The position numbers were made by a program, and so were the translations under genes. A stretch of DNA of 64,000 nt from Papaver somniferum (Eukaryota; Streptophyta; Magnoliopsida; Ranunculales; Papaveraceae). Of this stretch, positions 16,210 to 49,390 are shown one piece after another (the stretch's first letter is position 1; each line of letters begins with the position of its first letter). Where the stretch lies: assembly GCF_003573695.1 (NCBI RefSeq), contig NC_039368.1, positions 85,016,374-85,080,373 of the forward strand. Reading direction: 5' to 3'. A model generated the notes under the pieces. It was given only the letters and a program-made list of their open reading frames with translations. It ran no database searches and had not been told where the DNA came from.

Positions 16210-16214
16210 AATAC

Positions 16215-17791
16215 TGTTGTATTTTCAAATGTTGTTGTAGTAATAGTGATAAAAACTGGGTTCTTTTCGAACTTGTGAAGGTAACTCTTTTTTTTAGATT
16301 TAAACAAATAAATAAATGAAGGAAATTAATAGTAATGTCAAGATTTAGAAGGATTGAGGCTCAGGATTCACTACCACTCCAAGTTGATTGGTTATAAATA
16401 ATATTTCATAAATTATTATTAAGCTCTTTTTCTTATTACATCACTTTTTAATTTAAAAGGTGTCCAAATATTAAGTTGTAATCCTTAAGCATGATTTATC
16501 AAAGAATTATTCTAAGCATAAAACATCAAACTGATTCACAACTAATTAAGAAAACCATTTTATCCTTTTTTTTATATTTATCCAAGTGAATTAAATAAAG
16601 TAAATAATTAAAGAAATTATAAATAAAAATATTACCAATCAAACATGAGTGAATAGATCCTCCATTGCCTCAATCACCAAGAATTTAGCCGCTCATCATG
16701 TTGGAAAACCTCTCAAAATATTTCATTGATGCTCAAAAGTGTTTTACAATGAGAGAAAGACAAGAAAATGATGTAAAACAGGATTATGCGACCCACGAAA
16801 AGCGTCCAGAATCAACGACAGACCTAAAGTGCTGTTGTCGCTGAAGAACTACGACCCAAAAAAGACAGTCGATGTTGCTGTTGATAAACGTCTGTCCTGG
16901 GGAGTCTGTTCTTCACGTTCTTCCTCCTCGCAGCAGCAGCAGCAGAACCAGACTCTCTGCAAGTTGGATTTTCTTGCTCTGTAGTGTTCTAAACCTCTCC
17001 AAATTCTTCCTAAACTTCACTAGTACTCCCAGGGAACATATTTATACACCTACATCTCGTTGAATCTCCCTCAATTACTCCATATAATTCTCTTTAACTC
17101 GGCAGTAAAGAAAAATATTCTTGGGAATATTTTCTTTCCATTCTTGCTCTGGTACGCATAGATTTCCATCCTGGTCACTCTAGAAGTGTTTAAACACGTC
17201 CCAAAACGTTGCTAGAGCCCTCATGCATGAGAAGAACACGTTCAAATCTTCTCCAATCCCGTGTCCAACCCGTGTTTCCCTGTTTTTCTTCCGTGAATTG
17301 TCCAGCTAATTATGGCCAAATTTGATCGAACCAAAAGCCCAAAACGTGTTCCTTAACCTATATCACATCTTCCTACCAAGTTTGAGCCATTGAATCGCAC
17401 CACAACACCTTCATTTTGTCGATTGAATTTCTGCCAGTTGATGAACCAATTTTCCCGCCAAAAAGTTTATTTGAATTTGAGAAGAAGGTGCCCCTTATCC
17501 AGAGTGCTGGGGTGCGAATAGTAATTTGGGTGGAAATAGTAATTTTGGGGTGGAAATGATAATTTTTCTGGGATCCTCCGGTACATTTCTGGGACGTTTC
17601 CGGTGCATTTCTGGGGTGCCTTCGGTACATTTCTCCGGGGTGTAAATCATCACTTTTTGAGCAACTCTTTCCACAGAAGGGTATTTTCTCCAAAAACACC
17701 TAAACAAACATAAAAACACCGTAATAAGAACAAATGGATACTAACAAAATACACAAAAGAGAAGAAAATAGACACATAAATGTGTCTATCA
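16215..17791 (-). repeat. 3' LTR of element 1
   Basis: On the element strand it begins TGATAGACACATTTATGTGT and ends ATACAACA. Near its start are short tandem words (GGTACATTTCTGGGRCG-type units at 17577-17640 and GGTGGAAAT-type units at 17521-17568). These give spurious open frames of 74-108 codons. A CAG run lies at 16931-16946. Confidence 0.92.
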
Positions 17792-17806
17792 AATACCCCC
17801 AAACTT
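17792..17806 (-). other. Polypurine tract of element 1
   Basis: On the minus strand AAGTTTGGGGGTATT directly precedes the TG of the 3' LTR. The same tract is used by the Athila-like element (54536-54550). Confidence 0.85.
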
Positions 17807-19012
17807 ATTATTTGCTAGTCCCGAGCAAATCTAATCTAGAAAAGTGACCGAGTTAATCTCGGGTGGGTTTATCAGAGGTGTACCCACAAAAACCAATACT
17901 CCAGACCCTAGCTATCTACGCAGAACCTTGGAAAGCACTAAAGAACCTCCTTGGTTGGCATACAATTATTGACTCTAAGAGGAAGAACCCTGATGCGAAA
18001 TTCCAATTGCTGTACACGAGTTTGCACTCAAGCATACTAAAATTCATATAAGTGACAGAGCTCTACTAAGATAGTTTCACGATGGACATCATACTCGGAG
18101 TCAGACTAATCACATGAAAAGATTAAGAAGATGGAAAAAGAAAAATGTAGATGGTTGAAAAGTGAACGGTGTTTCCCATATCTGTCTGAAGGCCTCTGCC
18201 AAGATGAACCTAACCTAAATGACTGAGATACCGGTCTGACTAATATTAACACACTGGCATATACAAGGGAACCAGCAGTTGACTACACATAACAATAATC
18301 ATTTTTTTTTAACTTAACGGCATGAATAGATCTTTTGGATCCAAGCGCATGCTTCTTGTCAGCAGATTACACGATAGTTCCCACGGGTCCTGCATTCCAC
18401 GCTTGCTTAGGCGACGGAAACAGGGAGAACACACGCATATTGCTATCCAAGTGTTAATACTTATTCCGATTGGTCTAACTGGTCCGGTCTTTTTTTTTTT
18501 TTTTTTTTGAAAAAGGTAACTCAGTCACTCTATTTCACCCTAGAAAAGGTAACAACTTGAATCGTGTGCCCCACCAAATCACTTGAAACAAAAGAAAACT
18601 AAAAATAGAAAGTGAAAAGGACTCGACAAGATATGGCGAAACTATCATGTTATTTCTAACACCTGAGCTCTGTGCTTTTATGAATAGACTCTATAGATGT
18701 TTCCATCTAGTCAGATTGGTTCCTCAACTCCTAAAACAAAAATGTTTCCATCCACTTAGATTGGTTAGTGCTATCCTAAATACGCATAAATTTCTAGGCT
18801 CTGGAGTTTATTTATTACGCAACTAAAAAGTTTCTCCCATACCCCCAAACTTAAATCTAACATTGTCCTCAATGTTCTAAAGATGAAACTAAAAGCATGA
18901 ACAAGGAGAAACTGTTACCACTTGAAGCAAAAGAGATAAGGAAGGATATTACCGTGTTGCGTGAGATTGGGTTACCTCCCAAGAAGTGCTAAGTTTAAAG
19001 TCTTCAGCCAGA

Positions 19013-20695
19013 CTAAGAAAGGTTTAATCTCCTCGAATCATATAGCAATAGCCGAAATAATTGTGGGTTATCGAAACCAAATAGAGCTATCACAAGTAAA
19101 AGGAATCTGCAACAAGCCAAGAAAATGAACATGTACTGCATACCCTTATCTAGTTTCCTGATTAAGATACCTATGTCCCATTGTGGTTCAGGTTCAGGTT
19201 CTATGAAAGGATCTTGATAGAAAATTTTCATTGGATGCACTTCCTCATAGCTAAGATCCAACAGTTCAGGTTTAAAAGTCTGGAAAAACTCAATTAAAAA
19301 TAATAACAACCTGAATAAATGGGGATCCTTAAAGTCAATCAGATTTGACTTACACAGTTGACCACAAAGAGAGTGGTGGTCTTCCTTAAACAGATGTGTC
19401 GACCCTAATCTCCTAAAGTAATTAGGTTTAGTCTCAAAACTTAATAATTGACACATCTGAAATTTATATGTTCCCACAATTGGAAGAAAACTATTTGGTG
19501 GGAAAACAAAGTCAATCTGGTGATCATAGCCTGGGCAAACCACATCAACCAGAGAATGGGTTTCTAACGACTGAACTCCTTCATGGACAACATTGGGCTC
19601 GGGAAAACGAGTATGAAGGTAATCTTGTAAAATGGTCGAGGCACAGATATCAAGTCCTAAGTGTAGGGACTTTCTGAGAGTTAAAGGTAAGGCACTAGGG
19701 AAGTGATAATCACCCCCAAACTTAGAGTTTTCAGTGTCTTTAGATAGATCTCTAATTATTTCTTGAATTTCCGTATCTTCAGAGTCCTTAAAATATTCAA
19801 GAGATTCTTCTAAGTTATTATCAGGTAGTGCATCTTTACTCATCTCTACGGGTCTATCTTCTTCTTCCAAGACTATTGTTTCTAAGTCGCTAGACTCTAA
19901 AACAGTATTTTCGAAATGAACTCGTTCCTCTAAACCACTATCGGCTTCGTAAGCAGGAAATACTACATCGTCTAAAACGGTTGTATCCCTAATCAAATCC
20001 TCGTCCTTTTGAATAGGTGAATAATCATAAAAATTATTTGGATTTGAACTAGAAATAATATAATCACTATACAACTCAATTGGATTACTAGACTCCTGAT
20101 CACTATGCCTACATATTTCAGATTCTTCATTACTGCTATCCTCATCATCATAGTACGAAAATGATTGAACCTTATCTAAATAAGTAGTGTCTTTTATTCT
20201 AACCTCGTCCTCTAAATTAGGCAAATATTCATTATTGATATCAAGGGTAAAATTAGAAACACTATTTTGGAAATTTAGATTATTTCGAGCAAGTCTTTCG
20301 TTCGTCTCAGCCATCAACTTGAGGGATTCCTCTATAGAAAGTTCTCTTTCGTCAAAAACTAAGTTATTCATTTCTGCTAACTTACGTGTCGACTCTTCTA
20401 ATTTCCTGAGAGACTCTTCTAGAGAAGGAATGGGAACTGAAGGATCATAAAAAGGACTACTTTTCAATAGTTTGATTGTATCCTCTAGAGACGAAGAACT
20501 AGTACTATAATCTTCTTTCTCGTAAGACTGATGCATGTGTGGATAGTAATTAGGCTCACCAGGGTATGACCCATATCCTTCCAAAGGATGGCGTTCCCAA
20601 CCACTATTCCCAACATGGTCATAAAAATGAGGATGTCCATATTCAAATTCAGGTCGATACTCATTGTATTGGCTTCTATCATACCAGTTCGACAT
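19013..20695 (-). CDS. Acidic protein of a non-autonomous LTR element (element 1 ORF)
   Basis: 560 residues from the preferred start MSNWYDRSQY (20695); the frame stays open 27 codons further up to an ATG at 20776. Residue numbers here use the 587-aa form. N-terminus: Tyr/His/Pro-rich. Residues about 95-170: helical, Glu/Lys/Arg-rich, with repeated EESLRKLEES-like heptads (likely coiled coil). Centre: strongly acidic, Ser-rich. C-terminus: GLDICASTILQDYL, then DPHLFRLLLF (484-493), a hydrophobic segment (about 546-568, possible membrane span) and NPQLFRLLLY (570-579). No zinc knuckle, protease or polymerase motif. The ORF at 47666-49390 has the same architecture and C-terminal motif. Function unknown; possibly a highly altered gag- or envelope-position product. 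Confidence 0.75.
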   Translation of the reverse strand: MSNWYDRSQYNEYRPEFEYGHPHFYDHVGNSGWERHPLEGYGSYPGEPNYYPHMHQSYEKEDYSTSSSSLEDTIKLLKSSPFYDPSVPIPSLEESLRKLEESTRKLAEMNNLVFDERELSIEESLKLMAETNERLARNNLNFQNSVSNFTLDINNEYLPNLEDEVRIKDTTYLDKVQSFSYYDDEDSSNEESEICRHSDQESSNPIELYSDYIISSSNPNNFYDYSPIQKDEDLIRDTTVLDDVVFPAYEADSGLEERVHFENTVLESSDLETIVLEEEDRPVEMSKDALPDNNLEESLEYFKDSEDTEIQEIIRDLSKDTENSKFGGDYHFPSALPLTLRKSLHLGLDICASTILQDYLHTRFPEPNVVHEGVQSLETHSLVDVVCPGYDHQIDFVFPPNSFLPIVGTYKFQMCQLLSFETKPNYFRRLGSTHLFKEDHHSLCGQLCKSNLIDFKDPHLFRLLLFLIEFFQTFKPELLDLSYEEVHPMKIFYQDPFIEPEPEPQWDIGILIRKLDKGMQYMFIFLACCRFLLLVIALFGFDNPQLFRLLLYDSRRLNLS

Positions 20696-21748
20696 TCTTA
20701 ATTGCAAGGGAATTCTACACAACCACAAACAAGGCCGACTCGACTCCACCAAAACAAACCTAAAGATTTCTAGCAAACAAAAAGCATGATGGCTCCACTT
20801 AGATTGTTTTCTAGACCAGCTTCTATTCCTTCGAAAAGGAATTCGTTACAATTTGAGCACACCCCTCTGGAATCAATCCGAGCTAATGTAAGTTGAATTG
20901 AGGCGAGGGAAGCTTAGTAGAGCTTTGATACCCAAGGCCTCACCGCATTAGGCGGCGCAGTCACGCATTCAACTCACAGAAACCATCATGAACTTTGAAG
21001 TGTGCTTAAAGAGCAACCAATATTTTTCGAACGAGTTTCCTATTAAGCTCGTTACCCTATCGGTCTCGTTCTATTCCAAATTTTAAAGCTTAGGTTCGCG
21101 TTCGGTTTTGTTTTCCTAAGGCGGGCAAGAAGGAAACGGTGATGAAATCCGAGTCCTTATCTTGATTTGGCCAGGCCTTGCCCTTTACTAGGAATTTAAA
21201 AACAGTCCGGTTCGTCCTCAAACAATTATCACCTTAAGGCAGACAGTAACTCGCTTACAGGAGATTCGCGAGTGTCTCGATGGACTTACCTCCCGTACCA
21301 GACGGGCGATGAACCGTTGTCGTCGACTCGGGCCACGACTCCTATGCCGTGTGCGAACCCGAGGGGCCGAGACGATATAGTAATCGTCGTCCTTCCCTGC
21401 ACACAGTTTATAAATATTTTTTTTTTTTTTTAATAATAATACCCTTCCGTAGGGTTAAAAAAAGAATAAAGTCCAATTGTCCAGAATAAAGTCAAAGTCC
21501 AAAATAAATAAAAAAAAAAATTTACAGTTTTCCTCACACACTCTAAAAAAAAAAACAAATTTAAAAATTAAATCCTAAAATTGTCCTTTTTTCTTCTCTT
21601 TTCGCTTTTCGCTTTAAGCTTTTTCCTCTCCAAGTCCTTAGTTTTCACTTTGAACCTGCAAAATAAAGACAAAAAGAAACGTAAAAAGGAACAAACAATT
21701 CTAAAAAAAAATAATAAACCTAAAAAAAAAATTCTACCTAAGCACAGG

Positions 21749-21766
21749 TCCCCGGCAGCGGCGCCA
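21749..21766 (-). other. Primer binding site, tRNA-Asp type (element 1)
   Basis: The minus strand reads TGGCGCCGCTGCCGGGGA, one base from the complement of the tRNA-Asp 3' end used by Athila-type elements. It lies 6 bases from the 5' LTR. Confidence 0.85.
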
Positions 21767-21772
21767 AAAACT

Positions 21773-23349
21773 TGTTGTATTTTCAAATGTTGTTGTAGTA
21801 ATAGTGATAAAAACTGGGTTCTTTTCGAACTTGTGAAGGTAACTCTTTTTTTTAGATTTAAACAAATAAATAAATGAAGGAAATTAATAGTAATGTCAAG
21901 ATTTAGAAGGATTGAGGCTCAGGATTCACTACCACTCCAAGTTGATTGGTTATAAATAATATTTCATAAATTATTATTAAGCTCTTTTTCTTATTACATC
22001 ACTTTTTAATTTAAAAGGTGTCCAAATATTAAGTTGTAATCCTTAAGCATGATTTATCAAAGAATTATTCTAAGCATAAAACATCAAACTGATTCACAAC
22101 TAATTAAGAAAACCATTTTATCCTTTTTTTTATATTTATCCAAGTGAATTAAATAAAGTAAATAATTAAAGAAATTATAAATAAAAATATTACCAATCAA
22201 ACATGAGTGAATAGATCCTCCATTGCCTCAATCACCAAGAATTTAGCCGCTCATCATGTTGGAAAACCTCTCAAAATATTTCATTGATGCTCAAAAGTGT
22301 TTTACAATGAGAGAAAGACAAGAAAATGATGTAAAACAGGATTATGCGACCCACGAAAAGCGTCCAGAATCAACGACAGACCTAAAGTGCTGTTGTCGCT
22401 GAAGAACTACGACCCAAAGAAGACAGTCGATGTTGCTGTTGATAAACGTCTGTCCTGGGGAGTCTGTTCTTCACGTTCTTCCTCCTCGCAGCAGCAGCAG
22501 CAGAACCAGACTCTCTGCAAGTTGGATTTTCTTGCTCTGTAGTGTTCTAAACCTCTCCAAATTCTTCCTAAACTTCACTAGTACTCCCAGGGAACATATT
22601 TATACACCTACATCTCGTTGAATCTCCCTCAATTACTCCATATAATTCTCTTTAACTCGGCAGTAAAGAAAAATATTCTTGGGAATATTTTCTTTCCATT
22701 CTTGCTCTGGTACGCATATATTTCCATCCTGGTCACTCTAGAAGTGTTTAAACACGTCCCAAAACGTTGCTAGAGCCCTCATGCATGAGAAGAACACGTT
22801 CAAATCTTCTCCAATCCCGTGTCCAACCCGTGTTTCCCTGTTTTTCTTCCGTGAATTGTCCAGCTAATTATGGCCAAATTTGATCGAACCAAAAGCCCAA
22901 AACGTGTTCCTTAACCTATATCACATCTTCCTACCAAGTTTGAGCCATTGAATCGCACCACAACACCTTCATTTTGTCGATTGAATTTCTGCCAGTTGAT
23001 GAACCAATTTTCCCGCCAAAAAGTTTATTTGAATTTGAGAAGAAGGTGCCCCTTATCCAGAGTGCTGGGGTGCGAATAGTAATTTGGGTGGAAATAGTAA
23101 TTTTGGGGTGGAAATGATAATTTTTCTGGGATCCTCCGGTACATTTCTGGGACGTTTCCGGTGCATTTCTGGGGTGCCTTCGGTACATTTCTCCGGGGTG
23201 TAAATCATCACTTTTTGAGCAACTCTTTCCACAGAAGGGTATTTTCTCCAAAAACACCTAAACAAACATAAAAACACCGTAATAAGAACAAATGGATACT
23301 AACAAAATACACAAAAGAGAAGAAAATAGACACATAAATGTGTCTATCA
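21773..23349 (-). repeat. 5' LTR of element 1
   Basis: Same length (1577 bp) and almost the same sequence as 16215-17791. It is followed by the target duplication AATAC (23350-23354). Confidence 0.92.
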
Positions 23350-23354
23350 AATAC

Positions 23355-25440: not shown

Positions 25441-25730
25441 AACACCCCAATCAAGACATTTTATGTAGATATGTTATTTCCGACCTAGACAGAACAATTT
25501 AGAATAGACAATGAATTGTGATATGCTCTATTCAAATAGGGAATGCGTCTGCAAGAGATATTGCGGATCCGACATGACGTCACTATGACCATTAGCGCAT
25601 TTATTGAACCAATCAGCATTCCTACGTAAGAATTACCATGGTACCTTTTTTCTACATATGTCATGTTCCACGGCAGAACCCTTAGCATTGACCGACATCA
25701 TCTATACCAAACCCTAATTCTCACGCTACC

Positions 25731-26077
25731 GTGCCAATGGCAAACCATGCCAGCCACGTCTCTGCGCCAATGCATGCCAACCATGTCAACTGCACCACAG
25801 TGCCAATGGCAAAACATGCCAGCCACATCTCCGCGCCAAGGCATGCCAACCATCCCAGCCGCACCACTGTGCCAATAGCAAACCATGCCAGCTACATCTC
25901 CGCGCCAAGGCATGCCAACCATGCCAGCCACACCACTGTGCCAATGGCAAACCATGCCAGCCACGTTTATCGCGCCAAGGCATGCCGACCATGCTAGCCG
26001 CACCATGCGCCAATGGCAAACCATGCCATCCACGTTTATCGTGCCAAGGCATACCGACCATGCTAGCCGCACCATGC
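25731..26077. repeat. 69-bp tandem repeat, five units
   Basis: Units start GTGCCAATGGCAAA(C/A)CATGCC and end GCCGCACCA(C/T) at steps of 69 bp. It is GC-rich, unlike the surroundings. Because 69 is divisible by three, several frames stay open on both strands; these are artefacts. Confidence 0.85.
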
Positions 26078-26394
26078 GCCAATGACATGCCAAACCCTTG
26101 ACCCCACTATGCCAAGCCAACCACACCTTGCCTTGGGCCCAACCATGCTAGCCGCACCATGCGCCAATGGCATTCCAAACCCTTGGCCCCACCATGCCAA
26201 GCCAACCGCACCTTGCCTTGGCCCCACCATGCCAAGCCGTCCGTGCCAAACCTTTGGCCCCACTATGCCAAGCCAACCGCACATTGCCTTGTCCCCAACC
26301 ATGCTAGCCGCACCATGCGCCAATGGCATGCCAAACCCTTGGCCCCACTATGTCAAGCCATCCGCGCCATTGGCCTTGGCCCTACCATTGCAAC
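26078..26394. repeat. About 85-bp tandem repeat block
   Basis: Units start GCGCCAATGRCATGCCAAAC and contain CCCCACYATGCCAAGCCAAC and CTTGCCTTGGCCC. There are roughly three to four units, the middle one partly duplicated. They share the GCCAATGGCA and GCTAGCCGCACCAT words with the 69-bp block, so one derives from the other. Confidence 0.75.
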
Positions 26395-28993: not shown

Positions 28994-29545
28994 TTATATT
29001 GGAGTTTTGGATTCTGTGTTGGACTTTGAAAGCCTGTTGATCAAATAATAGGCTGTTGTAAAGGCATCAGCCCAGAAGGAGCATGGCATGTTAGCATGAA
29101 ACAAATGAGCTAAACCAGACTCGGTTACATGACGAATTCTACGTTCTGCCTGGCCATTTTGAGGTGATGTGTGTGGACATGAGAATCTGTGTTGTATACC
29201 TGTTTCATTGAGATAAGATGTGAACTTCTTAAACACTAAGGCATTATCTGACTGAAAAACTTTGATTTTATGATCTGTTAGATTTTCAACCTGTTTGTGA
29301 AATAGAATGAAAGTTTTTAGAGCATCTGACCTTTGCGCAAGAGGAAATACCCAAGTATAATGTGAAAAGACATCCATTATCAAAAGGTAATAACGAAAAC
29401 CATTTCTTGAAAAATGTGGTGAGACCCAAATATCAGAAACAACCAAGCTTAAAGGCTTGTCAAACAATAGTACTAAGAGAGAAAGACAACTTCTTGCTCT
29501 TACTGATGTGGCAAGAGTGACAATAATCAAGGTTTTTATTTGCAA
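28994..29545 (-). pseudogene. Copia integrase core
   Basis: The rve domain carries SDIWVSPHFSRNGFRYYLLI, FSHYTWVFPLAQRSDAL, FQSDNALVF and HTSPQNGQAERRIRHVTE. These are the regions of the D,D-35-E triad (second D in SDN, E in QAERR). The first Asp position reads SDIW. The frame is open here but isolated from protease and RT by frameshifts. Confidence 0.82.
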
Positions 29546-29995: not shown

Positions 29996-30005
29996 GATGT
30001 GTAGC

Positions 30006-36010: not shown

Positions 36011-36020
36011 CTAGGTACAT

Positions 36021-36606: not shown

Positions 36607-37121
36607 AGTAACAGGTTAACAGCCTGCTTGTGCTTATATTGTCAACCCTCTAATGTTCACACTGCTAGATCATCTTATTTTGCATGTGAGTAACAAACAA
36701 ATGACTCATTCAATTCACATATTGTGTGCTGTTATGTCTGTTATGCTTTTTGGGCAAAGAGTTTAAATGACAATAATTATATTTCCTGTCAAAGCTCTAG
36801 GGAAGAAATCACAACTGAATCTCTTATAGCTGCAAGTACAAAGGAGAATTGCAACAAGAATTAATTCTACGTTGATCACCAGCTTCTTCTATTTTATCTA
36901 ATCATTCACTAATACAAAAAGAATCATGGAATCGTATAATATTTCTTATACACAGTGGAAGTTCCGTTACAAACAATTTTTGCAGTCATAGTGCATTTTG
37001 GAAGTAGGAACTAACGGAGAAGGTTTCTTTAATTTGCATTAAAGAGGCGACGATATTACAGATTATGGAATGAAGAAACCGGCCTTTGGTTTTGAGCATT
37101 GGGCACAGTAGATGCATGTAT
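36607..37121 (+). repeat. Flank unit F1 (genomic sequence before the 5' LTR)
   Basis: 515 bp ending GATGCATGTAT directly before the LTR. Its last 447 bp recur at 56104-56550, 58084-58530 and 60066-60512. The full 515 bp recurs at 61190-61704. No ORF of note. Confidence 0.85.
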
Positions 37122-38646
37122 TGATAAACACATTTATGTGTCTATTTTGATCTCAATTATGTGTATTGTTAGTGCTCGCTTTTATACTTATTTGATTATT
37201 TTATGTTTTTGTAGGTGTTTTTGGAGAAATAAGCTTTTGCGCGAAAATTGGCTCAAAAAAGTGGTATTTGCGCTCGTGGGAGGAAATCACTAAAGACACT
37301 CTTTATTTGGATAAGGGGCACTCAATTACTAAGGGGAACCTACTTGTTATTTACACCCAGGACACCCTAAGTGTTAAAAGCACCCATCAGCAGGATAAGG
37401 GGTGTCATCTTCTACATTTGAATTTTTGCTTTTTGGCGAGGAACTCGTTGCAGCATCGTGTTGGAGCAAGACAGTGCGATAAATATTCACGGGAATGGAT
37501 AAAGTTTGATTGATAATGAGTATTGGTGACAAACCAGCGATGGTAAGAGAGTTTGTATTAGCACAGAAGACGTGTGAGAAGTTTAACATTCGTTCTCAAA
37601 GAAAACAGAGAAGGGATATATTCTCAGGTTTATTGGCTTTGCTTTTGGAAAGTACGTGGAAACATTGTCGAGTATGTTGATGATTTGGGAAGATGCGTGA
37701 ATGATTGGGAGAGTATATTGGGATCATATCCTATATTTACTAATGAGAGTTTTAATCAAAATAGGGAAGAAAATCTGTGACCTTTTTGGAAAAGAAAACC
37801 AGAGTTTTAATCGGTATTTTTGGTTGTTGTGTATATAAATAGGATGCTGGGAGCGAAACAGGGAGGGAAGAAAACCTTAGGAGAAGTTTAGAACACCACA
37901 GAGCTCCAGAGATCGGGTTGCAGGAAATCGTTTCTGCTGGTGCACAAGGAAGAACACGAAGAACAAAAGGCCATTGAAGACAGTCGTTTCTGGGGTCTTA
38001 AAATCAGCGAGAAAGGAACAGTATTTACAACAGTTTTCTGTAACAGTTCCATTGTAACAGCTGTTTTGCAACACTAATACATTGTTGCAAACAGTCTGTG
38101 TTATTACTTTTCACTCTTTTAATCATCTTTTGAACAACAAACGGATATTTTGAGATCATGATTAATATGAGGAGCTAAACCCCATTGCTATAGAGGAAGC
38201 GATTTTCCCAACAAAAAGTGGTATATTCTATTTTATCTTTTTATTTGCAATAAATATATGATTATTTGCCTTGAACTATTATTGAATATGATTTTTATTT
38301 GAGTGATTGTGATCTATTTTGATGGAGTATGCTTAGTTTTAAGACTTTTGATGCTTCATACTTGGTATTTACAATTACTACTTTTGAAAATCTACTTGTT
38401 GCAATATTTTATAATCAAATCAAACGAGAAAATTGCATAAATATAAGTATTGGTTTAATCACTTTGAACTTGGAAAATAGTGGAATCTTAGCCTCAGTGT
38501 TTCTTTTAATATTGATATCATCTTTGATTGAGTTTGCTAAAAATTTTAGTAAGTTTTCTATTTTAATATTAGAATTTAAGTCTAATTAGTATCCTTCACA
38601 AGTCTGAGAATCAAACCACTTTTACCACCATCTACAAATCACATCA
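37122..38646 (+). repeat. LTR1: 5' LTR of the Athila-like element
   Basis: TGATAAACACATTTATGTGT ... AATCACATCA. TATA box GTATATAAAT at 37831-37840, so U3 is about 740 bp. It carries variants shared with the truncated LTR5 (for example CCCATCAGCAGG and GATAAATATT) that are absent from LTR2-LTR4. Confidence 0.9.
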
Positions 38647-38649
38647 ATT

Positions 38650-38668
38650 TTTGGCGTCGCCGACGCGG
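38650..38668 (+). other. Primer binding site, degenerate tRNA-Asp type
   Basis: TTGGCGTCGCCGACGCGGA begins four bases after the LTR. It keeps TGGCG and several later positions of the TGGCGCCGTTGCCGGGGA consensus but is diverged. Confidence 0.55.
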
Positions 38669-39710
38669 AATTGCTTTTAGGGTTTTAGATTTTTTATTTT
38701 TTATTATTTTTGTCCTTTTTTATGTTTTTGGGTATTTATCTTGTGTCTACAGGTTCTGGATCATAAAGGAAATTAAGCCAAGGAGTTTGGTGATTTCATA
38801 AAGACTTGGAGCTAAAGGTTAAAGCAAAAAAGAACAGAAAAGAAGACAATTTTAGTTTAGGGTTTGTTTATTTTATTTTAAAAAAAATTGTATTGGGGTT
38901 TATTATTTTTGTAATTTTTCTTTATTTTTTTGGACTTTTGGACTTTGGGACGTTATTTTTTTATTACCCTACGGAAGGGTACTTTAAATATAAACTGTTT
39001 GCAGAGAAGGAGAACAATTACGATATTGTCTCTCCACCTTGGGTTCGTACACTATACATCGGAGTCAGTGGCCCGAGTCGACTTCAACAGATTCATCCCC
39101 CGTCTGGAACGGGAGGTAAGATTCTAAACACTCGCGAATCCCCTGTCAGCGAGTTACTGGACTCCTTCGTATGCATATATGTTGAGGACTGAATACGGAC
39201 ATTTATTTTTCTAGTAAAGGGAAAGGCCTGGCCATACAAGATAAGGGTTCGGATTTCTTCACCGTTCTCTTCTTGCCCGCTTTAGGAACACGTAACCTAC
39301 GCGAACCTAAGCCTAAAATTTTGACTAGAACGAGACCGATAGGGTAGCGAGCTTAACAGGAAAGTCATTCGAAAAATATTGGTTACTCTTTTAAGCATAC
39401 TTCGAAATTCTTGACGGTTTCTGTAAGTTGAATGCGTGACTGCGCCGCCTTGTAATACCGGTGAGGCCTTGGGTATCAAATCTCTACCGAGCTTCCCTCG
39501 CCTCTATTCAACTTACATTAACTCGGATTGATTCCATAGGGGTTTGCTTAAATTGTAACGAATTCCCGTTCGAAGGATTAGAAGTTGGTCTAAAAACAAT
39601 CTAAGTGGAGCCATCATGCTTTTTGTTTGCTAGAAATCGATATGTTTGATTTGGTTGAGTCGGCCTTGATCTGTGTTTGCTTACCCTTCCAATTTAGAAA
39701 ATTCGATTGT
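38669..39710 (+). other. Leader (5' UTR) of the Athila-like element
   Basis: About 1 kb without coding function. The words ACCCTACGGAAGGGTA (about 38966), CACTCGCGAATCCCCTGTCA (about 39129) and GGTCTAAAAACAATCTAAGTGG (about 39586) recur in inverse orientation in the leader of element 1 (about 21440, 21260 and 20800). This ties the two elements together. Confidence 0.75.
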
Positions 39711-40856
39711 ATGCATGAACGTAAAAGAGACGCACTAGGTAGATTTGTTAAATAGAAACCTAGTAGTTCGAAGCGTCTCGATTACCTTAATATAGAAAGT
39801 CCGACTTTTGAAGAGTCTGTTTTTGAACGTTCTTTGACTGAGGAGAGAATCCATGTTGCTCCGATAGCGCCAGAAATGGCAACTTTTAAAGCTTTGTTGA
39901 ATCCAACTAGGACTACTCGTCCTTCGTGTATTAAGTTAGCTGAAACGGAGGCACCCTATAAACTGAAACCTGGGACCTTACAGATGCTCCCAATCTTTTT
40001 AGGGAAAGAAAATGAAAACCCTTATTACCATGTTAGGGATTTTGAGGAAATTTGTAGTACTCTAAGAATTAGAGGCTTAGATGATGATGCTTTGAAACTT
40101 AGGTTATTCTCATTTTCCCTGAAAGATAAGGCCAAGTCGTGGCTGTATAGTTTGGACTCCGAGTCAATTGAGACATATAAACAACTTACATCTGCCTTCT
40201 TCAATAAGTTTTTCACTAGGCACAAAACATCGTCTATTAGGACGCAAATATGCACATTTTCACAACAAGAGGGAGAATCTTTATATAGGTATTTGGAAAG
40301 GTTCAATGATTTATTATCCCAGTGTCCTCATCATGGTTTAGAAAAGGTTAGGCTAGTTCAGATCCTTTATGAGGGTTTAGATTGTTCCACAATGACCATG
40401 GTTGAGTCTCTATGCACTGGTGGATTTGAAAACCAAACTGTTGATACGGCGATGGAAATTTTTAATGAAATCGCCAAAAAAACCCAGCAATGGGAAAATA
40501 GTAGGGCACCCCAGAAAACAATTCTTTTAAGTAGAGGAAACGTTAATAGGGTAGAAGGAGGCTATGAATCAGATGCCAAAATTGCTACTAAAGCAAAAAG
40601 GTTAGAAGCCTTAGAAGTGGGCCAGACTAATGGTAGAGTGGAGCCTTTTTGGGAAGGACATAATATTGAAGAGCAGGACAATGCTCTTTATAATAAAACT
40701 AGATTTGATAACCGTCAAAAGATTGACCCATATTCAGAAACCTATAATCCTGGTTGGAGAAACCATCCGAAACTTTCGTGGTCTAAGGGCCAAAGTCAAG
40801 GTCAGTTTAGTAATTCTAATGCTCCCCCAGGTTTTGGCTATACTAAGAATCCTTAA
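39711..40856 (+). pseudogene. gag of the Athila-like element
   Basis: Likely start ATG 39711 (MHERKRDALGRFVK), with TAG as codon 15 (39753-39755). The frame then stays open to TAA 40854. Blocks: IHVAPIAPEMATFKALL, the retrotransposon gag core (FEEICSTLRIRGLDDDALKL, LFSFSLKDKAKSWLYSL, FFNKFFTRHKTSSIR, YRYLERFNDLLSQCPHHG) and the C-terminal YNPGWRNHPKLSWSKGQ. Gag forms the intracellular particle. The same frame continues beyond the stop, as in single gag-pol frames of this group. Confidence 0.88.
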
Positions 40857-41051
40857 GGACTAGCTCAGTTTCAGAATCAGTCAGATAAGAAAATCCTAAG
40901 TTTATAGGAATCTCTCGCCTTGTTAACTCAGCAAACTGCAAAATTTCAGTTATCCGTAGAACAGAGTCTACAAACTAGTAACAGGATTGGACAAGAAAAT
41001 AATCAGGCTATTTCCGAGTTAAAAACCTAGGTTGGTCTGATAAGTGATTCT

Positions 41052-42468
41052 TTGAGAGAAAAAGGTAAATTTCCTAGTCAAACACAACCCAACCCTAGAG
41101 GAGTTCATGAATTAGGTGCAAAACCATCGAATCAATTGAATGTTGTTAGAACCCTTAGAAGTGGTAGAGTTGTAGGCAATAAGGTAACCATGCCCGATAG
41201 TGAACATACTGTAGTTCACCTCTCAGGATCTCACCTCTCAGGACCAGTAGCTAAAGAGGCTGATAAAGTTTTTGATGATGTGAATTCGGTTCCTGAAAGG
41301 TCTGATTTTAGGTCTAGAGCCCCATTTCCTCAGTTATTAGTACCAACAAAGAAGGAATCGAACTTTAATGATATAGTGGAGGTTTTTAAGAAAGTTACCA
41401 TAAACCTTCCCTTATTAGATGCAATTAGGCAAATTCCTGCTTATGCCAAGTTCCTTAAGGATATGTGTACGCGAAAGCGAAAACTTAGCGTCCATAAGAA
41501 AGCCTTTTTAGCTAGTCACGTAAGTTCAATCATTCACAACTCCGAAGTACAAAGACCCAGGTTCTCCTACCATTGCTTGCACAATAGGTAACTTCCGGGT
41601 AGAAAAAGATTTACTTGACTTAGGATCCAGTGTGAACTTACTGCCATTCCATGTATACTTACAGCTAGGACTTGGTGAAATGAAACCTACTCAGAGGACA
41701 CTGCAGTTAGCTGATAGGTCTGTTAAAATCCCTCGAGGTGTTATCGAGGATGTTCTTATTGAGGTCGACAAGTTTATTTATCCAGTGGATTTCGTGGTCC
41801 TAGATACCCAACCTGTCCCTGACCTAGAGAACCAGATACCTGTGATTTTAGGTCGCCCATTTTTAGCTACGTCTAATGCGATCATTAACTGTCGAAATGG
41901 TGTGATGAGTTTTTCTTTTGGTAATATGACTATGGAGATGAACATTTTTAATGTCAGTAAGCAACCTCATGAGCTAGATGACACATGTGTTGAGGAGGTG
42001 AACATGATAGAGTCCTTAGTTCAGGAGTCATTACCAAACATCTTGTCTGAAGACCCATTAGAAAGTTGTCTATCCCATTTTGGTTTAGATTTTGACGACG
42101 ATAGCACTATTGAACATGTGAATGCTCTATTAAATTCTACCCCTGTGTTAGACACTTATATATGGAAATCTAGGTTCGAACCATTACCAGTCTCTGAGAC
42201 TACTCTCATTCCTTCTTTAGAAGATCCCCCAAAGTTGGACCCTAAACCACTACCCGGTACTATAAAGTATGTGTTTTTAGGTCCATATAAGACTTTACCT
42301 GTGATTATAGCTTCCGATTTGGATAGTGATCAGGAAAGTAGGCTAGTAAATGTACTTCAAGACAATAAGGGATCTTTAGGGTGGACTATAACAGACATTA
42401 AGGGTATAAGTCCTTCTGTGTGTATGCATCAGATTCATTTAGAGGAAGACTCCAAACCTTCTAGGTAG
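41052..42468 (+). pseudogene. Protease region of pol
   Basis: 41052-41591 (gag-pol linker: LRSGRVVGNKV, FLKDMCTRKRKLSVHKK) is in frame with gag. A +1 shift then leads to the retropepsin (LLDLGSSVNLLPFHVY, catalytic D-L-G near 41615; VILGRPFLATSNAIINCRNG) running to TAG 42466-42468. That stop replaces the codon before MQRRLNPNMKEVV at the RT start. Confidence 0.85.
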
Positions 42469-43062
42469 ATGCAACGTCGACTGAACCCTAACATGAAAGA
42501 GGTAGTTCGAAAAGAGGTTCTTAAGTTGTTAGATGCGGGTATTATTTACCCAATTTCAGACAGTAAGTGGGTCAGCCTTGTTCATGTTGTCCCCAAGAAA
42601 TCAGGTATCACTGTAGTCCAGAATGATAATAATGAATTAATCCCAACCCGAGTGACCACGGGATGGCGTGTGTGTATTGACTATAGGAAATTGAACAAGG
42701 TCACAAGGAAGGATCACTTTCCCCTTCCTTTTATCGACCAAATGCTAGAGCGATTAGCTGGACATAGTCACTATTGCTTCTTAGATGGCTACTCCGGTTA
42801 TAATCAGATCGTTATTGCCCCAGAAGACCAAGATAAAACCACTTTTACCTGTCCCTTTGGTACCTTTGCTTATAGAAGCATGCCTTTCGGGATATGTAAT
42901 GCCCCTGTAACTTTTCAGCGCTGTATGATGAGCATATTTTCTGATATGGTAGAACGGTTCTTAGAGGTCTTTATGGATGATTTTCCAGTGTTTGGTTCAT
43001 CTTTCGATGAGTGCTTGCATCATTTGACATTAGTGTTGACTAGGTGTAAGGAAAAAAATTAG
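42469..43062 (+). pseudogene. Reverse transcriptase of the Athila-like element
   Basis: Open for 197 codons: QRRLNPNMKEVVRKEVLKLL, VPKKSG, WRVCIDYRKLNKVTRKDHFP, FLDGYSGYNQI, FAYRSMPFGICNAPVTFQRC and the catalytic FMDDFPVFG. All palm motifs are present, including both Asp of FMDD. A stop follows at 43060 and the thumb/RNase H start continues in another frame. Confidence 0.92.
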
Positions 43063-43326
43063 TGCTTAATTGGAAAAAATATCATTTCATGGTTAAATCG
43101 GGAATTGTGTTAGGGCACATCGTATCTTCAAAGGGTATAGAGGTAGACAAAGCCAAAGTTGACCTTATTAAGACTTACAGGTCCCAAAAACCGTAAAATA
43201 TATTAGGTCATTCCTAGGACATGCAGGTTTTTACTGTCGATTCATTAAGGATTTTAGCTTTATTTCTAGACCTCTTTGCAATTTGCTTGCAAAAGATGTT
43301 AAGTTTGTCTTTGATGATGCTTGTTT
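43063..43326 (+). pseudogene. RT thumb / RNase H beginning, cut by the nested element
   Basis: GIVLGHIVSSKGIEVDKAKV, a frameshift, then RSFLGHAGFYCRFIKDFS and CNLLAKDVKFVFDDACF. The reading ends where sequence of the nested element begins (about 43327). The rest of RNase H and the integrase N-terminus are not found in the window. Confidence 0.8.
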
Positions 43327-43914
43327 TGAATGGGAGAAAGCCCACTGTTGGTTTTGTGTTTGCTTTGGCTCAGCTGGTTTGAAAACGTTTGGTGAAACTG
43401 AGTCCAAAATCTCGGCCTAGAATTTGGGTACTCGGCCCACTAACGAGTTAACCTAGCGTGATCGGTTACAAGCTCAGCTGGGTTTAAAAACCCAGAATAA
43501 AAAATACCAGTCCAAATTAAACAAGCTCACAAAAATTAAATACAAGCCCACAAATTAAACAAACAAGCCCACAAAAATTAATTACAAACCCAACAGAAAA
43601 TAAAAAGCCCAAAAATTGGCTTTAATATTACAAGCCCACAAAAAAATTGGAAGCCCACAATTCGGGTTCTCTTAAATGGGTTACCTTTTAAGCACAGCCC
43701 AGCTGCTCTGATATTGTTGCAAAAACCCAGTTGGGCTTTGGTTCTTTTCCTTGGTGGCGTCCCAGCAGAGGAAAAACCGAGTTCAGAACAGCAGGTCCAA
43801 CAGCAAATGAAGTGAAGCAGATGCAGATGCAAATGTTATACAGTGAAATGGAAAAATAGCTAATAAAACTACTAGAGAAACAAACCTGAGTCCCCGGCAG
43901 CGGCGCCAAAAACT
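43327..43914 (-). repeat. Extra partial leader + PBS copy of element 2
   Basis: Matches 49675-50264 with scattered substitutions. It includes a second PBS (minus-strand TGGCGCCGCTGCCGGGGA, 43891-43908) touching the left LTR. Its left end joins the Athila-like RNase H region inside the shared word TTTTGAATGGGAG. Confidence 0.85.
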
Positions 43915-46287
43915 TGGTGGGCCCGGGAAAGCGTATAAAATTGAAGCGAAATGAAACGGGCCTACAGTAATACCGCAAGTGCACGGTCGTCAGTTGTAGC
44001 TCGTGCAAGTACGGGTCGATCCACAGAGACTGGGGGTGTTTGGAGTTTCTAGCTATTTGGGCTCTAAATTGCTATTGGGCTTAGTGGGTTTTTGTAACAA
44101 TGAAATGGTTTTGGGCTCAGTGGGCTTTTGGATTGACTGTGAACTTATGGGCTTTTGGTCTTTTGATGTGAACTGGGCTTGGTAACAATGAACTGGGCCT
44201 TAGGCCTTAACCTGAACTGTGGCTGGGCCTTGAACTAAACTTTGGTCTTAGCTGAGCCAAGCTCAGTTGCAGCAGCAGTGCAAAGGGCAGGTGCTCAGCA
44301 GGGAAAGGGAGAGCAGGAGCTGTGCAGGCAGACAAGGTAAAGCAGGCTCTAGGCAGACAGGGCACTAAATCACACAGGGCCAAGGATGGCATTTACAATG
44401 ACATGTACAAATAAAAAGGGACAATGGTATATACATGGAAGCAACACAGGGCAAAAGGATGCAAATTTACAATGGCAATGAAGATGGTAGTGAAATAATG
44501 AGACAATGGATGATAAAACAATAAACACAAGAAAACAGATACAAATACAAAACACAAAACAGGTGACAGTGGCAGTGGAGAGTGATAGTGAAGAAAAGCA
44601 AAGGAAATGGTGAAAATGGCAGTGAGGATGGCAATGGAAATGAAGCAAAGAGAAAGACCAAGGCAGTGAAGTAAATGTGACAGTGAAGCAAAGGTAACAG
44701 TGGCAGTTAACAGGAAACAAAGCCAAATAAACCAAGGATGTTAGCCAAGGGCAGGGAGGAGTTTGCAGCTGTGGCTAAGCTAAGGCTTAGAATCCACCTT
44801 GTGTCCTAGCTAAACAATGCAATTCTAGATTTAAAAACTTAAGCATCCAACTAGAATGGGAAGAAAATCAACTTGCTCACTGATTTGCCCCTAGCATTGA
44901 CTGTCTTTTGAAAGCACAGTCAATCACAGGCATATCAGAGCACCAACTTCTTCCCATTACTCAAGCGAAACAGGCCTTCCTAGCAATTCATCATTCAATA
45001 GCGCACTAAGGTTTCATCTGAGCCTCAGCAGTAAACTCAGAACATAATTAACATTAAAATGGAACTAAACATGATCATGTGAAATAACATAGCATTTAAA
45101 CAACTAAACAATGAATGAAAATTGCAAATGAAGAACCCTAAAAATTAACAGTGAAAACAAATTGACATTAAATTAAATTAACCCAATTAGGGGGTTTCTC
45201 GGATGACCCAAGAACAACCTTTGCATTCTCTACAGCTTCCCTTTTATAGTTTTTTCAAAAATACAAAACCCTAATTCGAAACCCTAATTTTTTGGGGAAA
45301 ATCAAATTCTCTCACCAATTTCCTGAATTGAGCTCGACCCATGCTTTGGGTATGTCCCCTCTGCTCTTCTGAAGATTTTCCTGCCCTCAATTTTGTCTTC
45401 TCCTCGCTGTTGGTGAAACCCTAGCTCGAGATTTCTTGTCAAACCCACACCTAGGGTTCAGAGATGTGAATTTGGAAAGAAGTCTAGGCTAGAGAGAGAT
45501 GTCGTGGTGTTGTCGGGTGGTTGTGGTGGTGGTGTGGTTCGAGAAGAAGGTGTAGCTGGTGGAGGTGATGGAGTTGCAGAACTGTGGAGCAGCTCTCTGC
45601 AGTTTGGGGAAGATGAGAAGAAGAACCCGATGGAGAAGAAGGGTCCGTTTGGTTGGGTAATAGGGTTCGGTGACTAGGGTGTGAAGCAGGGATAGCGAAC
45701 TTTGATGAACATCGAGTAAAGAGCGTTGGATGATCCCATATAGATTGAATCGAACGGCTACGATGGAGAGGTATGTGGCGACCGTTGGATTATGAGATAC
45801 AACAAAATTGATGGCTTCAGATGGAGTTAGGTACTATGGTGTTTGACAGGAGCCTCGGATTTTGATGCACAATGATGAGGCGACCGTTGGATGACAAGAT
45901 GGATCCAATCTGACGGCTCTCATGGAAATGGGTGTGGATAATGGAAATGGATTTGGGTAAGGGTTTTGGGCCTTGGGTATGCCAAGCCCATATCTTCTTT
46001 AAGAACAGTTCTTCCTCTTCAAACCCACTCCTAGTTGATCCGGCTCTTGCAAACATCATTCTTTGCTTCCTCCTAGCGAGAGTCTTTGCCGTTCCTTTAC
46101 TCTTTTCGCTCCGTGAGTTAACCAGGCTTTATTTAGTACCTAAAAATGCAAAATTAATTAAGAAAAGTATTTATTCTTGAAAACAACGAAAACACAGAAT
46201 ATGGGATAAAATGTAGAATTAATGCACAAAAGATGAGTTAAATGCCAAGAAAAATATATAGAAATATGCACTTTTTAGCACTCATCA
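43915..46287 (-). repeat. 3' LTR of element 2
   Basis: On the element strand TGATGAGTGCTAAAAAGTGC ... CGGGCCCACCA. Interior contains purine-rich, weakly repetitive GCAGTGG/AATGGAAATG words (44400-44700). Open frames here (for example 44370-44735) are by-products of that composition. Confidence 0.88.
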
Positions 46288-46303
46288 AATACCCCCAAAC
46301 CTG
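46288..46303 (-). other. Polypurine tract of element 2
   Basis: The minus strand CAGGTTTGGGGGTATT directly precedes the 3' LTR, like the PPT of element 1 and the Athila-like element. Confidence 0.82.
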
Positions 46304-47665
46304 AATTTTACTTGTCCTCAAGTAAAACAAAACTAAGGAAATCCTACCTATAACACTGTCGCTGGTCTCTCGAATGCATTTAGCGTATGCACTAAGCCTT
46401 TTAAACCACTCAGTGTCCCTAGTGGACGAGTTGAAGTCTCGTGAAGGTTTGCTTAGAACGTACCTACAAAGTTCTAGGTCAAAATATAAGCTCAGATTCC
46501 ATCAAATGTGACATGTGCAAGTCAGTTAAGCTCACAGCAAAATGGAGATGTCAATCTAGCTATCAAGGCACGATCCTAGCACTGATAACAAAAAAAAACA
46601 TGTGATAAGAGTGTAAAGTGTATCTACACATGTGTAAAGAAAGATCGGATGTTATGACTACTAATCACCAAGAGATAGTTTCTCAGGCTAAGAACCAAGG
46701 TCGAAATCTAGCTAGCTGTCCGGACTTTACGAGAATTGTGAATGAGTTGGAGGTATTTCACAATTACTCGCGTTGTACATCAATGGCATACACCCTTCCT
46801 TGATTATTACAATAAAACACAAAAGATGACTCTTTACATGACTCTTATTTACATTGACTACTCTCTTTTATTTTTGGAACAAGAGAGGATGGAATTGATA
46901 AATACTTGAATTTTTTTTTTTTTAATTTGCACAAGAACTTGAAATTGATTTTTACATATGGTAGCTCTTTTGATACATAACAAGAAACAAAAAAATTACA
47001 TGACACTTTGCAAGAGGTAGCCCTTTTTGATGCACCCAGTTAAATTCGATGGTTGTCTTTCTTAATGTAACCTCCACCTTCTATCCCAACCAACCAAAGA
47101 ACAAGTTAGTCAAGTTTCGTTCAGTATTCTAAAGTGATTGGCAATCGTGACTTCCTATCAAACACCTTGAAGATCGAGGCTATACATGTATTGGTAGATC
47201 GTGCGCGTGCAAATTTCTTATCACTATGTGAATTGTGCTAGAATCAGGGTGCCTAAATATCTAGACTAAGACTCCTAATAATTACATATTTGCACAAGAG
47301 TCAACATTTCAAGGTAAATGAGCTCCATTTTTACGAATTTTTTTTCAATTTTTAATTTTTTTATTTTGATATTTTCATTTTTTTCAAAAAGAAGGAGTTC
47401 TTGTTTTCAATTATGGCATATTATCAAAGTATCTACTTTTCACCCCCAAACCTAAACTAAACATTGTCCTCAACGTTTCAAAATATGAACAAAATTATAA
47501 TACAACATATGAAGAGGATCATGTTGAGTAGAGAAAAAGGAAAGAGAATACCCGATTTCGGCGAAAGCAATATTAGAACTCCGTTATTCAGGGCAAGAAT
47601 CCAACATATGTCAGCCGAGATCATATTGGATTAGCAAAATATATACAAAAGGAACAAAAGGGTTT

Positions 47666-49390
47666 TTAAGAAATTTTATCTACTGGATTATATACAAAAA
47701 ATTCACCATACACTAACAATCTAAAGAGTTGAGGATCAACCCAAAAGACAAAGTGTAGAGGTTTCAACAGCTTCACACAATAATAATATGATAGGCATGA
47801 AAGTGAAGCTGTGAAACAAAATGAGCTACCCCCAAACCTGGATTTTTCAACGGATAAAATTTTGGAAACAAAATCTCGCAGTTTTGGGGGTTCATCATGC
47901 ACAAGGTCTAGCTCAAAGTGAACTGTACTAGGGACGGGCAAACATGCTAATTCCAACTGTGGTTCCTCAGATGTATTATACTTAGAAGCAAAATAGTCCA
48001 AGAGGACTTGGGAAGCACACAGTTCCAAACCTAGGTTGGGAATTCTCAGAAAAATTGGTTTGACAATATCGGTACAAACCAAATCTAGGTTGGGTGGAAG
48101 GCCATCCGATTGTGACTTATGTAGGACGATAGGCACATAATTACTAATCACATCAACATCTCCTAAGTCTTCTACAAGTGTCACAACATGCTCACAATCA
48201 TCAAACAAATTGGCAAGATCACAATCAGAGTCATCAACATCATCAACAGATTCATTCTCATGCATCGGCAAATCAGGAGAAATATCACAATGTGACCTAG
48301 GTAGAGAATCAGACACATCAAATATATTTTCATGCATATTAGTGTCTACAGAAGATTCAACTATTCCTATGTCATGCTCATCTTCACAGAATAATTGTAC
48401 GAATCCCATGTCAATATCAAAATCATATGAATTACAATGAGTATTAGAAAGAACAACATGCATGAAGGTCGAGGGCGAGAAGCCATATGTTTTTGAACCA
48501 ACAGGTTCCACAATATTTTCATGTTCTTCTAACATATCATCATCATCATAATCATCATCATGGTAGCATGCATATTGGTCCTCATTAACAGTGGTGGTGT
48601 CATTAGTCGATTCATGTTCCTCTAAATTAGGTTCATATTCAACATTATTTACATGAATGGGACTAGACACTTCATTAGGGACAACATACATTTCCTCATG
48701 AATTTCCTCCTTTTGTAGGTGAAGCAAAATCTGATCTAAATATGCATGAATTCGTGATGTAGATCTATCATAGTCTTGCTTGCAGAGTCTTAAAGCTTCT
48801 GTGGTGGAGTCTAAATTCATGGGAGTACAAAATTCTTCATGTTCAAATTGTGGTGAATGGTACATGTGTGCATGGTCATTAGGGTTTATAAAATATTGAT
48901 CGCAACCCTCAAAGGATTGATTATGGTCCCAATGACTACCATTCTCACAATTTATGGGCATTTCATACCTTGGACTTTCTCTATATTGCCTAAAATTATG
49001 CAAAATATGACAATTCTCAACAGGGTGGTCTAAACTACCACATGCGGGACATGCATAGATTTCAGGTTGCCTAAGAAAATTAGATGTGACAGATTCCTCA
49101 TGTGATTGCATTTCTAAAGCTGTGATTCGAGCTTCTATTTGATCCATAAGTGATGATTGTGTGAGTGAGGCTCTAGCAGAATGTTCATTTTCACGTTGCG
49201 ATGAATGATGCATGTATGAATAGTCATTAGGGTTCATGTATTGCGGCTCGGGACTTTGAAAATGTCCATAATAATTCCTATGACTATTCACATCATGGTC
49301 CGTGGAAGGTTCATAACGTGAAGTTTGTCCATATGCAAGTTCTCTAAGGGATTTGTTGTACTCCCCAACTGTAGAAAAAGATCTATTCAT
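47666..49390 (-). CDS. Acidic protein with CCHC zinc knuckle (element 2 ORF)
   Basis: 574 residues from MNRSFSTVGEYNKSL. Residues 51-70 and 166-186 are an internal duplication (Y-x-NPND-x-x-x-M-x-HS-x-Q-x-E). Between them CPACGSLDHPVENC (114-127) is a perfect CX2CX4HX4C knuckle, as in nucleocapsid parts of gag. The middle is very acidic (HDDDYDDDDMLEEHE). The C-terminal part has LGLELCASQVLLDYF, a hydrophobic stretch (about 519-551) and DPQLFRLLVY (552-561). The last three match the order seen in the element 1 ORF (GLDICASTILQDYL, hydrophobic segment, NPQLFRLLLY). It could be a gag derivative that packages RNA, helped by enzymes of another element. No enzyme motif. Uninterrupted frame of 574 codons suggests recent selection or youth. 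Confidence 0.75.
   Translation of the reverse strand: MNRSFSTVGEYNKSLRELAYGQTSRYEPSTDHDVNSHRNYYGHFQSPEPQYMNPNDYSYMHHSSQRENEHSARASLTQSSLMDQIEARITALEMQSHEESVTSNFLRQPEIYACPACGSLDHPVENCHILHNFRQYRESPRYEMPINCENGSHWDHNQSFEGCDQYFINPNDHAHMYHSPQFEHEEFCTPMNLDSTTEALRLCKQDYDRSTSRIHAYLDQILLHLQKEEIHEEMYVVPNEVSSPIHVNNVEYEPNLEEHESTNDTTTVNEDQYACYHDDDYDDDDMLEEHENIVEPVGSKTYGFSPSTFMHVVLSNTHCNSYDFDIDMGFVQLFCEDEHDIGIVESSVDTNMHENIFDVSDSLPRSHCDISPDLPMHENESVDDVDDSDCDLANLFDDCEHVVTLVEDLGDVDVISNYVPIVLHKSQSDGLPPNLDLVCTDIVKPIFLRIPNLGLELCASQVLLDYFASKYNTSEEPQLELACLPVPSTVHFELDLVHDEPPKLRDFVSKILSVEKSRFGGSSFCFTASLSCLSYYYCVKLLKPLHFVFWVDPQLFRLLVYGEFFVYNPVDKIS

Follow-up and report, generated by a model that had tools for sequence, protein, structure and literature searches.

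Two long terminal repeat (LTR) elements in a 64,000-nucleotide stretch of Papaver somniferum DNA (contig NC_039368.1, positions 85,016,374 to 85,080,373 of the forward strand; the whole stretch is called the window below and numbered from its first letter) carry one long open reading frame (ORF) each, and the two encoded proteins very probably form a single family. Element 1 occupies positions 16215-23349 and element 2 positions 43915-52640, both on the minus strand, and element 2 is inserted within a broken Gypsy element. The best explanation of these observations, for which we put the chances at about even, is that both elements are satellites of the Athila/Calypso type that keep their cis-acting signals, and that gag-pol was swapped for one Gag-derived gene whose product joins the particles of a partner element.

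The finding bears on why parasitic retroelements retain a long gene after their copying machinery is lost. One protein family in two elements with dissimilar LTRs, adjoined by a putative broken copy of a partner family, provides a concrete test pair for whether such proteins aid the entry of satellites into the particles of another element, and it would extend the pattern of wheat Quinta and Sabrina to another plant family and probably to another Gypsy lineage.

A protein family in two elements

ORF1 (19013..20695, minus strand; 560 amino acids counted from its ATG) has the ATG at 20695 as its most likely start, matching the start of its relative P0001, and ORF2 (47666..49390, minus strand) encodes 574 amino acids. 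The product of ORF1 runs from a Tyr/His-rich N-terminus through an acidic region with an internal repeat to GLDICAS, DPHLFRLLLF, a hydrophobic segment and NPQLFRLLLY, and that of ORF2 from a Tyr/His-rich repeat through a helix, a CCHC knuckle (CPACGSLDHPVENC, C-x2-C-x4-H-x4-C, residues 114-127), a second Tyr/His-rich repeat and an acidic region to GLELCAS and DPQLFRLLVY. The motif GL[DE][IL]CAS followed by [DN]PQLFRLL is present in both proteins in identical order, and the C-terminal motifs quoted in an earlier note on this DNA, including the second copy DPHLFRLLLF in element 1, are all present as that note had them.

Protein searches with ORF2 recovered eight proteins from 2590 candidates, of which an ENA contig supplied one and Papaver somniferum the other seven, and a search with the region of its C-terminus gave six proteins, every one already known from the full-length search. 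For ORF1, where just the 7993 candidates with the most words in common were scored, the single match was an ENA fragment at 70% identity. No relatives outside Papaver somniferum and two ENA contigs were found by these protein searches, which require shared 5-residue words and did not extend to any plant DNA collection. Against solved structures, ORF2 had no match and ORF1 had two, both weak and unrelated, and none of the eight pattern matches from a scan of viral contigs was confirmed. One of the relatives, P0009, fuses a short family match to the unrelated host-like domain pair DUF7952/DUF7650 and is probably a merged gene model; as the named relatives come only from Papaver, capture of a host gene was rejected as an explanation.

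The relationship between the two proteins was detected with a profile of the ORF2 family (ORF2 and seven relatives), which gave ORF1 38.2 bits and P0001 38.5 bits, compared with 8.3 bits for the best of 2000 controls. These controls were ORF1 and reversed ORF1 shuffled locally, one of them being the plain reverse; HMMER applies a large composition correction to ORF1 (32 bits), and the shuffled controls preserve local composition. Among 2049 six-frame pieces of the window, the same profile placed ORF1 second, at 37.3 bits, behind ORF2 itself, and profile-profile alignment gave a probability of 98.9%, with the C-terminal ends pairing with the first LFRLLLF copy of ORF1. The architecture that the earlier note had described as common to the two ORFs is thus very probably that of one family, on the strength of profile homology in one direction and of motifs in the same order.

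The strongest stretch common to ORF1 and ORF2, around EY-x-PNLE ... DTT ... DDE, is acidic and recurs within ORF1 (score 52, against a maximum of 45 among 30 shuffles), and acidic repeats also occur in P0003 (51 vs 43) and P0005 (64 and 57 vs 44), spaced by about 64-71 residues or a multiple thereof. In ORF2 the Tyr/His-rich repeat is significant (69 vs a shuffle maximum of 48) and the acidic repeat, with a score of 37, is not. The two C-terminal blocks, which were picked for being conserved, comprise 31 codons, 4 of them identical, 13 with synonymous differences and 14 with replacements, so that 27 of 31 codons differ; the motifs therefore appear to be conserved as protein, and the possibility that they are DNA signals was rejected on the same grounds.

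The long frame itself appears to be maintained by selection, as the earlier note had supposed. The longest stop-free runs in the two interiors are 610 and 583 codons, whereas first-order Markov simulations, 500 for each interior, gave at most 226 and 227. When ORF DNA was changed neutrally until the observed protein identity was reached, the frame was still free of in-frame stops in none of 500 simulations for ORF2 versus P0003 (54% protein identity), in 2 of 500 when the P0004 region was compared and in 4 of 500 for ORF1 versus P0001 (70%). Two caveats attach to these results: frames that are broken do not enter protein databases, and stops may be passed over in gene models. For P0002 the comparison was uninformative, as 87 of 500 simulations remained open.

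Element anatomy and the adjoining Gypsy copy

Element 1 is bounded by LTRs of 1577 bp (3' LTR 16215..17791, 5' LTR 21773..23349) with TG...CA termini and 2 mismatches between them, and it is flanked by the 5-bp target duplication AATAC (16210-16214 and 23350-23354). The LTRs of element 2 (3' LTR 43915..46287, 2373 bp; 5' LTR 50265..52640, 2376 bp) likewise end in TG...CA and differ at 33 of 2373 aligned positions; one of its original ends, needed to read a target duplication, is missing. With the substitution rate of 8.1e-9 given for Papaver in PMC12582370, simple arithmetic yields ages of about 0.08 million years for element 1 and about 0.9 million years for element 2. Beyond the 3' LTR of element 2 lies a second copy of its leader (43324..43914, minus strand; 11 differences in 591) with a primer-binding site (PBS) at 43891-43908, giving a layout of LTR, interior, LTR and partial leader; the extra copy, which lies within the Gypsy element, is read as a remnant, tandem or recombinant in origin.

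Remeasurement reproduced the LTR lengths (1.58 and 2.37 kb) and interior lengths (3981 bp in element 1, 3977 bp in element 2) of the earlier note, as well as the single ORF of at least 150 codons in each interior. The LTRs of the two elements are unrelated, and the whole elements match in short stretches alone: at an E-value of 1e-5 these are 30 nt at the LTR end and PBS and 48 nt behind the ORF, and a looser cut-off adds one match of 25 nt. Because so little sequence is shared, the near-equal interior lengths look coincidental, and a meaning for them was rejected. Both elements are non-autonomous, having no pol ORF and one ORF of about 570 codons each; Pfam found no reverse transcriptase (RT), RNase H or integrase domain in ORF1 or ORF2, the parts of the interiors that this search covered.

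The cis-acting signals of the two elements are alike. Both have a PBS of the tRNA-Asp type six bases from the LTR, at 21749..21766 in element 1 (minus strand; 1 mismatch in 18 to the complement of plant tRNA-Asp) and at 50241..50258 in element 2 (minus strand; 2 in 18), and the broken Gypsy element has its own at 38652-38669, with 5 mismatches in 18. For Calypso and Diaspora, a tRNA-Asp PBS five bases from the LTR is described (PMC1142308). In all three elements, a palindrome with the core TTGAGGACAA followed by the internal polypurine tract (PPT) TTTGGGGG lies 3' of the coding region: directly after ORF1 at 18838..18876 (minus strand), after ORF2 at 47443..47478 (minus strand) and, with an imperfect palindrome, at 53482-53516 of the Gypsy element (plus strand). 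The same arrangement recurs ahead of the 3' LTR of element 2, where the palindrome and the terminal PPT occupy 46288..46327 (minus strand); the terminal PPT of element 1 is GTTTGGGGGTATT (17792..17804, minus strand) and that of the Gypsy element lies at 54538-54550 (plus strand). In RNA folds the palindrome stem forms in elements 1 and 2 but not in the Gypsy copy with its imperfect palindrome. These palindromes before PPTs possibly serve plus-strand priming or act as an RNA signal.

An extra PPT has been reported for Athila4 and Calypso (PMC2829016), and together with the tRNA-Asp PBS it suggests, as part of the evenly weighted explanation given at the outset, that elements 1 and 2 may be non-autonomous derivatives of an Athila/Calypso-type Gypsy element. 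As the ORFs end before the internal PPT, they occupy the gag-pol position and not the env-like position.

The left part of the broken Gypsy element (37121..43323, plus strand) comprises a 5' LTR and a leader followed by gag (PF03732, E about 2e-19), protease-like sequence (PF13650, under the curated cut-off) and RT (PF00078), and its right part (52641..54550, plus strand) an integrase-like end recognized by eye, of which a 168-residue piece had no match in Pfam, and a 3' region. This copy cannot work, because stops interrupt its coding sequence and the part from RT to integrase is missing. The second part of the element 1 leader (20695..21518, minus strand) is 80% identical over 837 aligned positions to the Gypsy leader (38915-39699), and this homology ends with the A of the ORF1 ATG (20695); the first 250 bp or so of the element 1 leader have no match there. 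The 3' regions of the two elements are 82-85% identical in two stretches of about 440, and their first LTR bases, about 140, match at about 78%. A leader and 3' region in common, with homology stopping at the start of the ORF, argue that the flanks were conserved and the one coding region between them exchanged. The broken Gypsy element appears to be related to element 1 and to represent a broken copy of its partner family.

Directly behind the Gypsy element lies a tandem array (54551-61704) in which a unit of 1981 bp, made of an LTR of about 1.54 kb and a 450-bp spacer, is repeated about 3.4 times, and the same 450-bp spacer occurs at 36671-37120, directly ahead of the Gypsy 5' LTR. Elsewhere in the window there are G+C-rich tandem repeats at 25728-27306, with a period of about 214 in their right part; a remnant of another element on the minus strand (28994-29981) with an integrase core (PF00665) within 28994-29545; an F-box gene with a beta-propeller domain on the minus strand (13362-14645); and an ORF of 201 amino acids (31779-32384) that is chlorophyll-binding-like (PF00504, E 0.01, under the Pfam cut-off), perhaps a plastid protein.

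Origin and possible role of the protein

The family of ORF1 and ORF2 is probably a remodelled Gag, derived in part from Gag. The main evidence is the relative P0006, which joins Gag sequence to the knuckle, the acidic part and the C-terminal blocks: its N-terminal part matches the Gag of the window at 34.0 bits (best of 1000 shuffles, 7.1), and the protein continues through the knuckle to the acidic part, which is followed by the blocks GLDLCAS and DPQLFRL. The CCHC knuckle is found in 4 of the 11 family sequences checked (ORF2, P0002, P0003 and P0006) and in altered form in P0005; it is absent from ORF1, P0001, P0004, P0007, P0008 and P0009, some of which are fragments, and the window Gag is also without this pattern. 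The earlier note had proposed an ORF of unknown function left after the loss of gag-pol; pol is indeed gone, but the knuckle and P0006 indicate that the ORF is not wholly unrelated to Gag. Descent from the linker between protease and RT of the Gypsy element, considered for a PPKL likeness seen by eye, was rejected, as 0 of 49 Gypsy pieces beat the best of 980 shuffles.

On the best explanation, the elements would have retained their LTR ends, the tRNA-Asp PBS and the internal and terminal PPTs, and element 1 also part of the leader, while one gene took the place of gag-pol. From the features described above we infer that the protein may descend from a Gag through loss of the capsid domain and has a long acidic region and a conserved C-terminal block, that it would bind the RNA of the element and enter particles built by the Gag and Pol of a partner, and that the partner enzymes would then copy and integrate the element. 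As the ORF1 branch is without a knuckle, its proteins would have to recognize RNA through regions other than the knuckle and through the shared leader. The hydrophobic C-terminal part may provide particle or membrane contact; for membrane association, which the earlier note had suggested, this stretch is the one basis, strong near the C-terminus of ORF1 (Kyte-Doolittle 2.6 over 19 residues) and weak in its counterpart in ORF2, which peaks at 1.2. A bolder version, which seems rather doubtful, would see here a long-lived satellite lineage with a dedicated capsid-less Gag derivative, a protein with a long acidic region and a hydrophobic C-terminal block that serves to insert satellite RNA into autonomous particles and was kept by selection while the LTRs diverged past recognition.

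A number of results weigh against the explanation by a Gag-derived satellite protein. In the reverse test, a profile of ORF1 and P0001 scored ORF2 at -2.0 bits, rank 381 of the 901 listed (from 1000 shuffles plus ORF2), and it did not recover ORF2 from the six-frame set of the window; a profile built from two sequences only, one of them a fragment, may account for the failure, which still counts. The acidic block, with 11 identical codons, 2 synonymous differences and 18 replacements among 31, gives no sign of protein-level conservation through altered codons, and the replacements that separate P0002 from ORF2 are not more conservative than in neutral simulations, 456 of 2000 being as high. 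Neither a Gag nor a CCHC domain was detected by Pfam in ORF1 (E up to 1), in ORF2 (E up to 10) or in P0006, the knuckle is missing from both ORF1 and P0001, and the ORF2-family profile scored the window Gag at 8.1 bits, with 1 of 980 shuffles higher at 11.2. The match of P0006 to the window Gag sets in at residue 215 of that Gag, past the Pfam capsid domain (116-209), and P0006 is one gene model from prediction, possibly chimeric. AlphaFold models were of low confidence, with a mean predicted local distance difference test score (pLDDT) of 33.5 for a first set of ten sequences, in which ten-residue blocks at the pre-knuckle helix and the knuckle reach 58-67; the C-terminal prediction called for by the earlier note was run on seven sequences and gave helices with a mean of 44.0 and blocks of at most 58. 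Finally, no partner for element 2 was found within the window.

The alternative that survives best, possible though tentative, is that the protein is not derived from Gag but is an accessory protein of separate origin, whether de novo or by capture of a host gene, which came to stand in the gag-pol position, the CCHC of ORF2 being a later addition in one branch. It would suit the lack of both a knuckle and a Gag match in ORF1, the acidic motif and C-terminal block without a Pfam match above the cut-off, and the outcome of the structure and protein searches, in which the only named relatives were from Papaver; a precedent exists in the small proteins that wheat Sabrina_NA elements carry (PMC9744471). 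However, P0006 and P0005 (the latter in variant form) place the knuckle ahead of the acidic part without long Tyr/His repeats, P0006 has Gag sequence ahead of its knuckle, and the host gene relative that this origin could entail was not found by the word-based protein searches.

An improbable reading is that the ORF does nothing for its element, the two elements being deletion derivatives with a gag remnant open by chance. Element 1 is very young, with 2 differences in 1577, so that its open frame alone proves little, and the ORF2-P0002 replacements look neutral in kind; but the frame is kept at 54% and 70% identity, where few or no neutral runs stay open (in databases that hold only open frames), the same protein occurs in two LTR families, and the C-terminal motifs are retained despite changed codons, in blocks chosen as conserved. 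Least probable of all is an Env-like or membrane protein akin to the env-like ORFs of Athila, Calypso and Bagy2, which the C-terminal hydrophobic segment of ORF1 and the known env-like ORFs of this lineage would favour but which was rejected because both ORFs lie upstream of the internal PPT, not between it and the 3' LTR, and the segment of ORF2 is weak.

Comparison with known systems

No published description of the ORF1/ORF2 protein family was found in the literature searched, which is no proof that the family is unpublished. Non-autonomous elements with a replacement ORF are already on record for wheat Sabrina_NA (PMC9744471) and Quinta (PMC11302176), and the satellite principle is illustrated by Cereba/Quinta, Wilma/Sabrina/WHAM and TR-GAG. 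RLG_Quinta, whose partner is RLG_Cereba, is described as a non-autonomous Gypsy element that has the PBS, LTR ends and other non-coding parts in common with its partner, and its single ORF as Gag plus a domain of unknown function (PMC11302176). The poppy elements differ in that Quinta has a clear Gag, whereas here there is no Pfam Gag and the knuckle is confined to the ORF2 branch, and Cereba is centromeric as opposed to the Athila-like type here (PMC11302176). In wheat RLG_Sabrina_NA2-NA8, gag-pro is likewise replaced by sequence for other proteins with the remainder kept, four of these proteins being reported as without relatives and two likened to viral capsid proteins; they are short and differ among variants, in contrast to the protein of about 570 amino acids common to two families with unrelated LTRs here (PMC9744471).

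TR-GAG elements are also LTR elements with a single Gag-type ORF, and one was observed transposing in Arabidopsis, but they are defined by a recognizable Gag domain (PMC6022998, PMC8704663); PF03732 is absent from ORF1 and ORF2, which therefore stand outside the clear-Gag pattern of TR-GAG and Quinta. Within Papaver itself, the Retand sublineages include non-autonomous Gypsy elements with only GAG or with GAG and PROT, and, compared by description only, they differ in their annotated domains and in their Retand membership (PMC12582370). Athila4, Calypso and Diaspora resemble the present elements in the tRNA-Asp PBS near the LTR (Calypso, Diaspora) and in the extra PPT in the linker (Athila4, Calypso), and are distinguished by the presence of gag-pol and, in some, of env-like ORFs (PMC2829016, PMC1142308). 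What is special in the two poppy elements is the combination of a protein with no detectable capsid domain, a long acidic region and a conserved C-terminal block with its occurrence in two elements that have unrelated LTRs.

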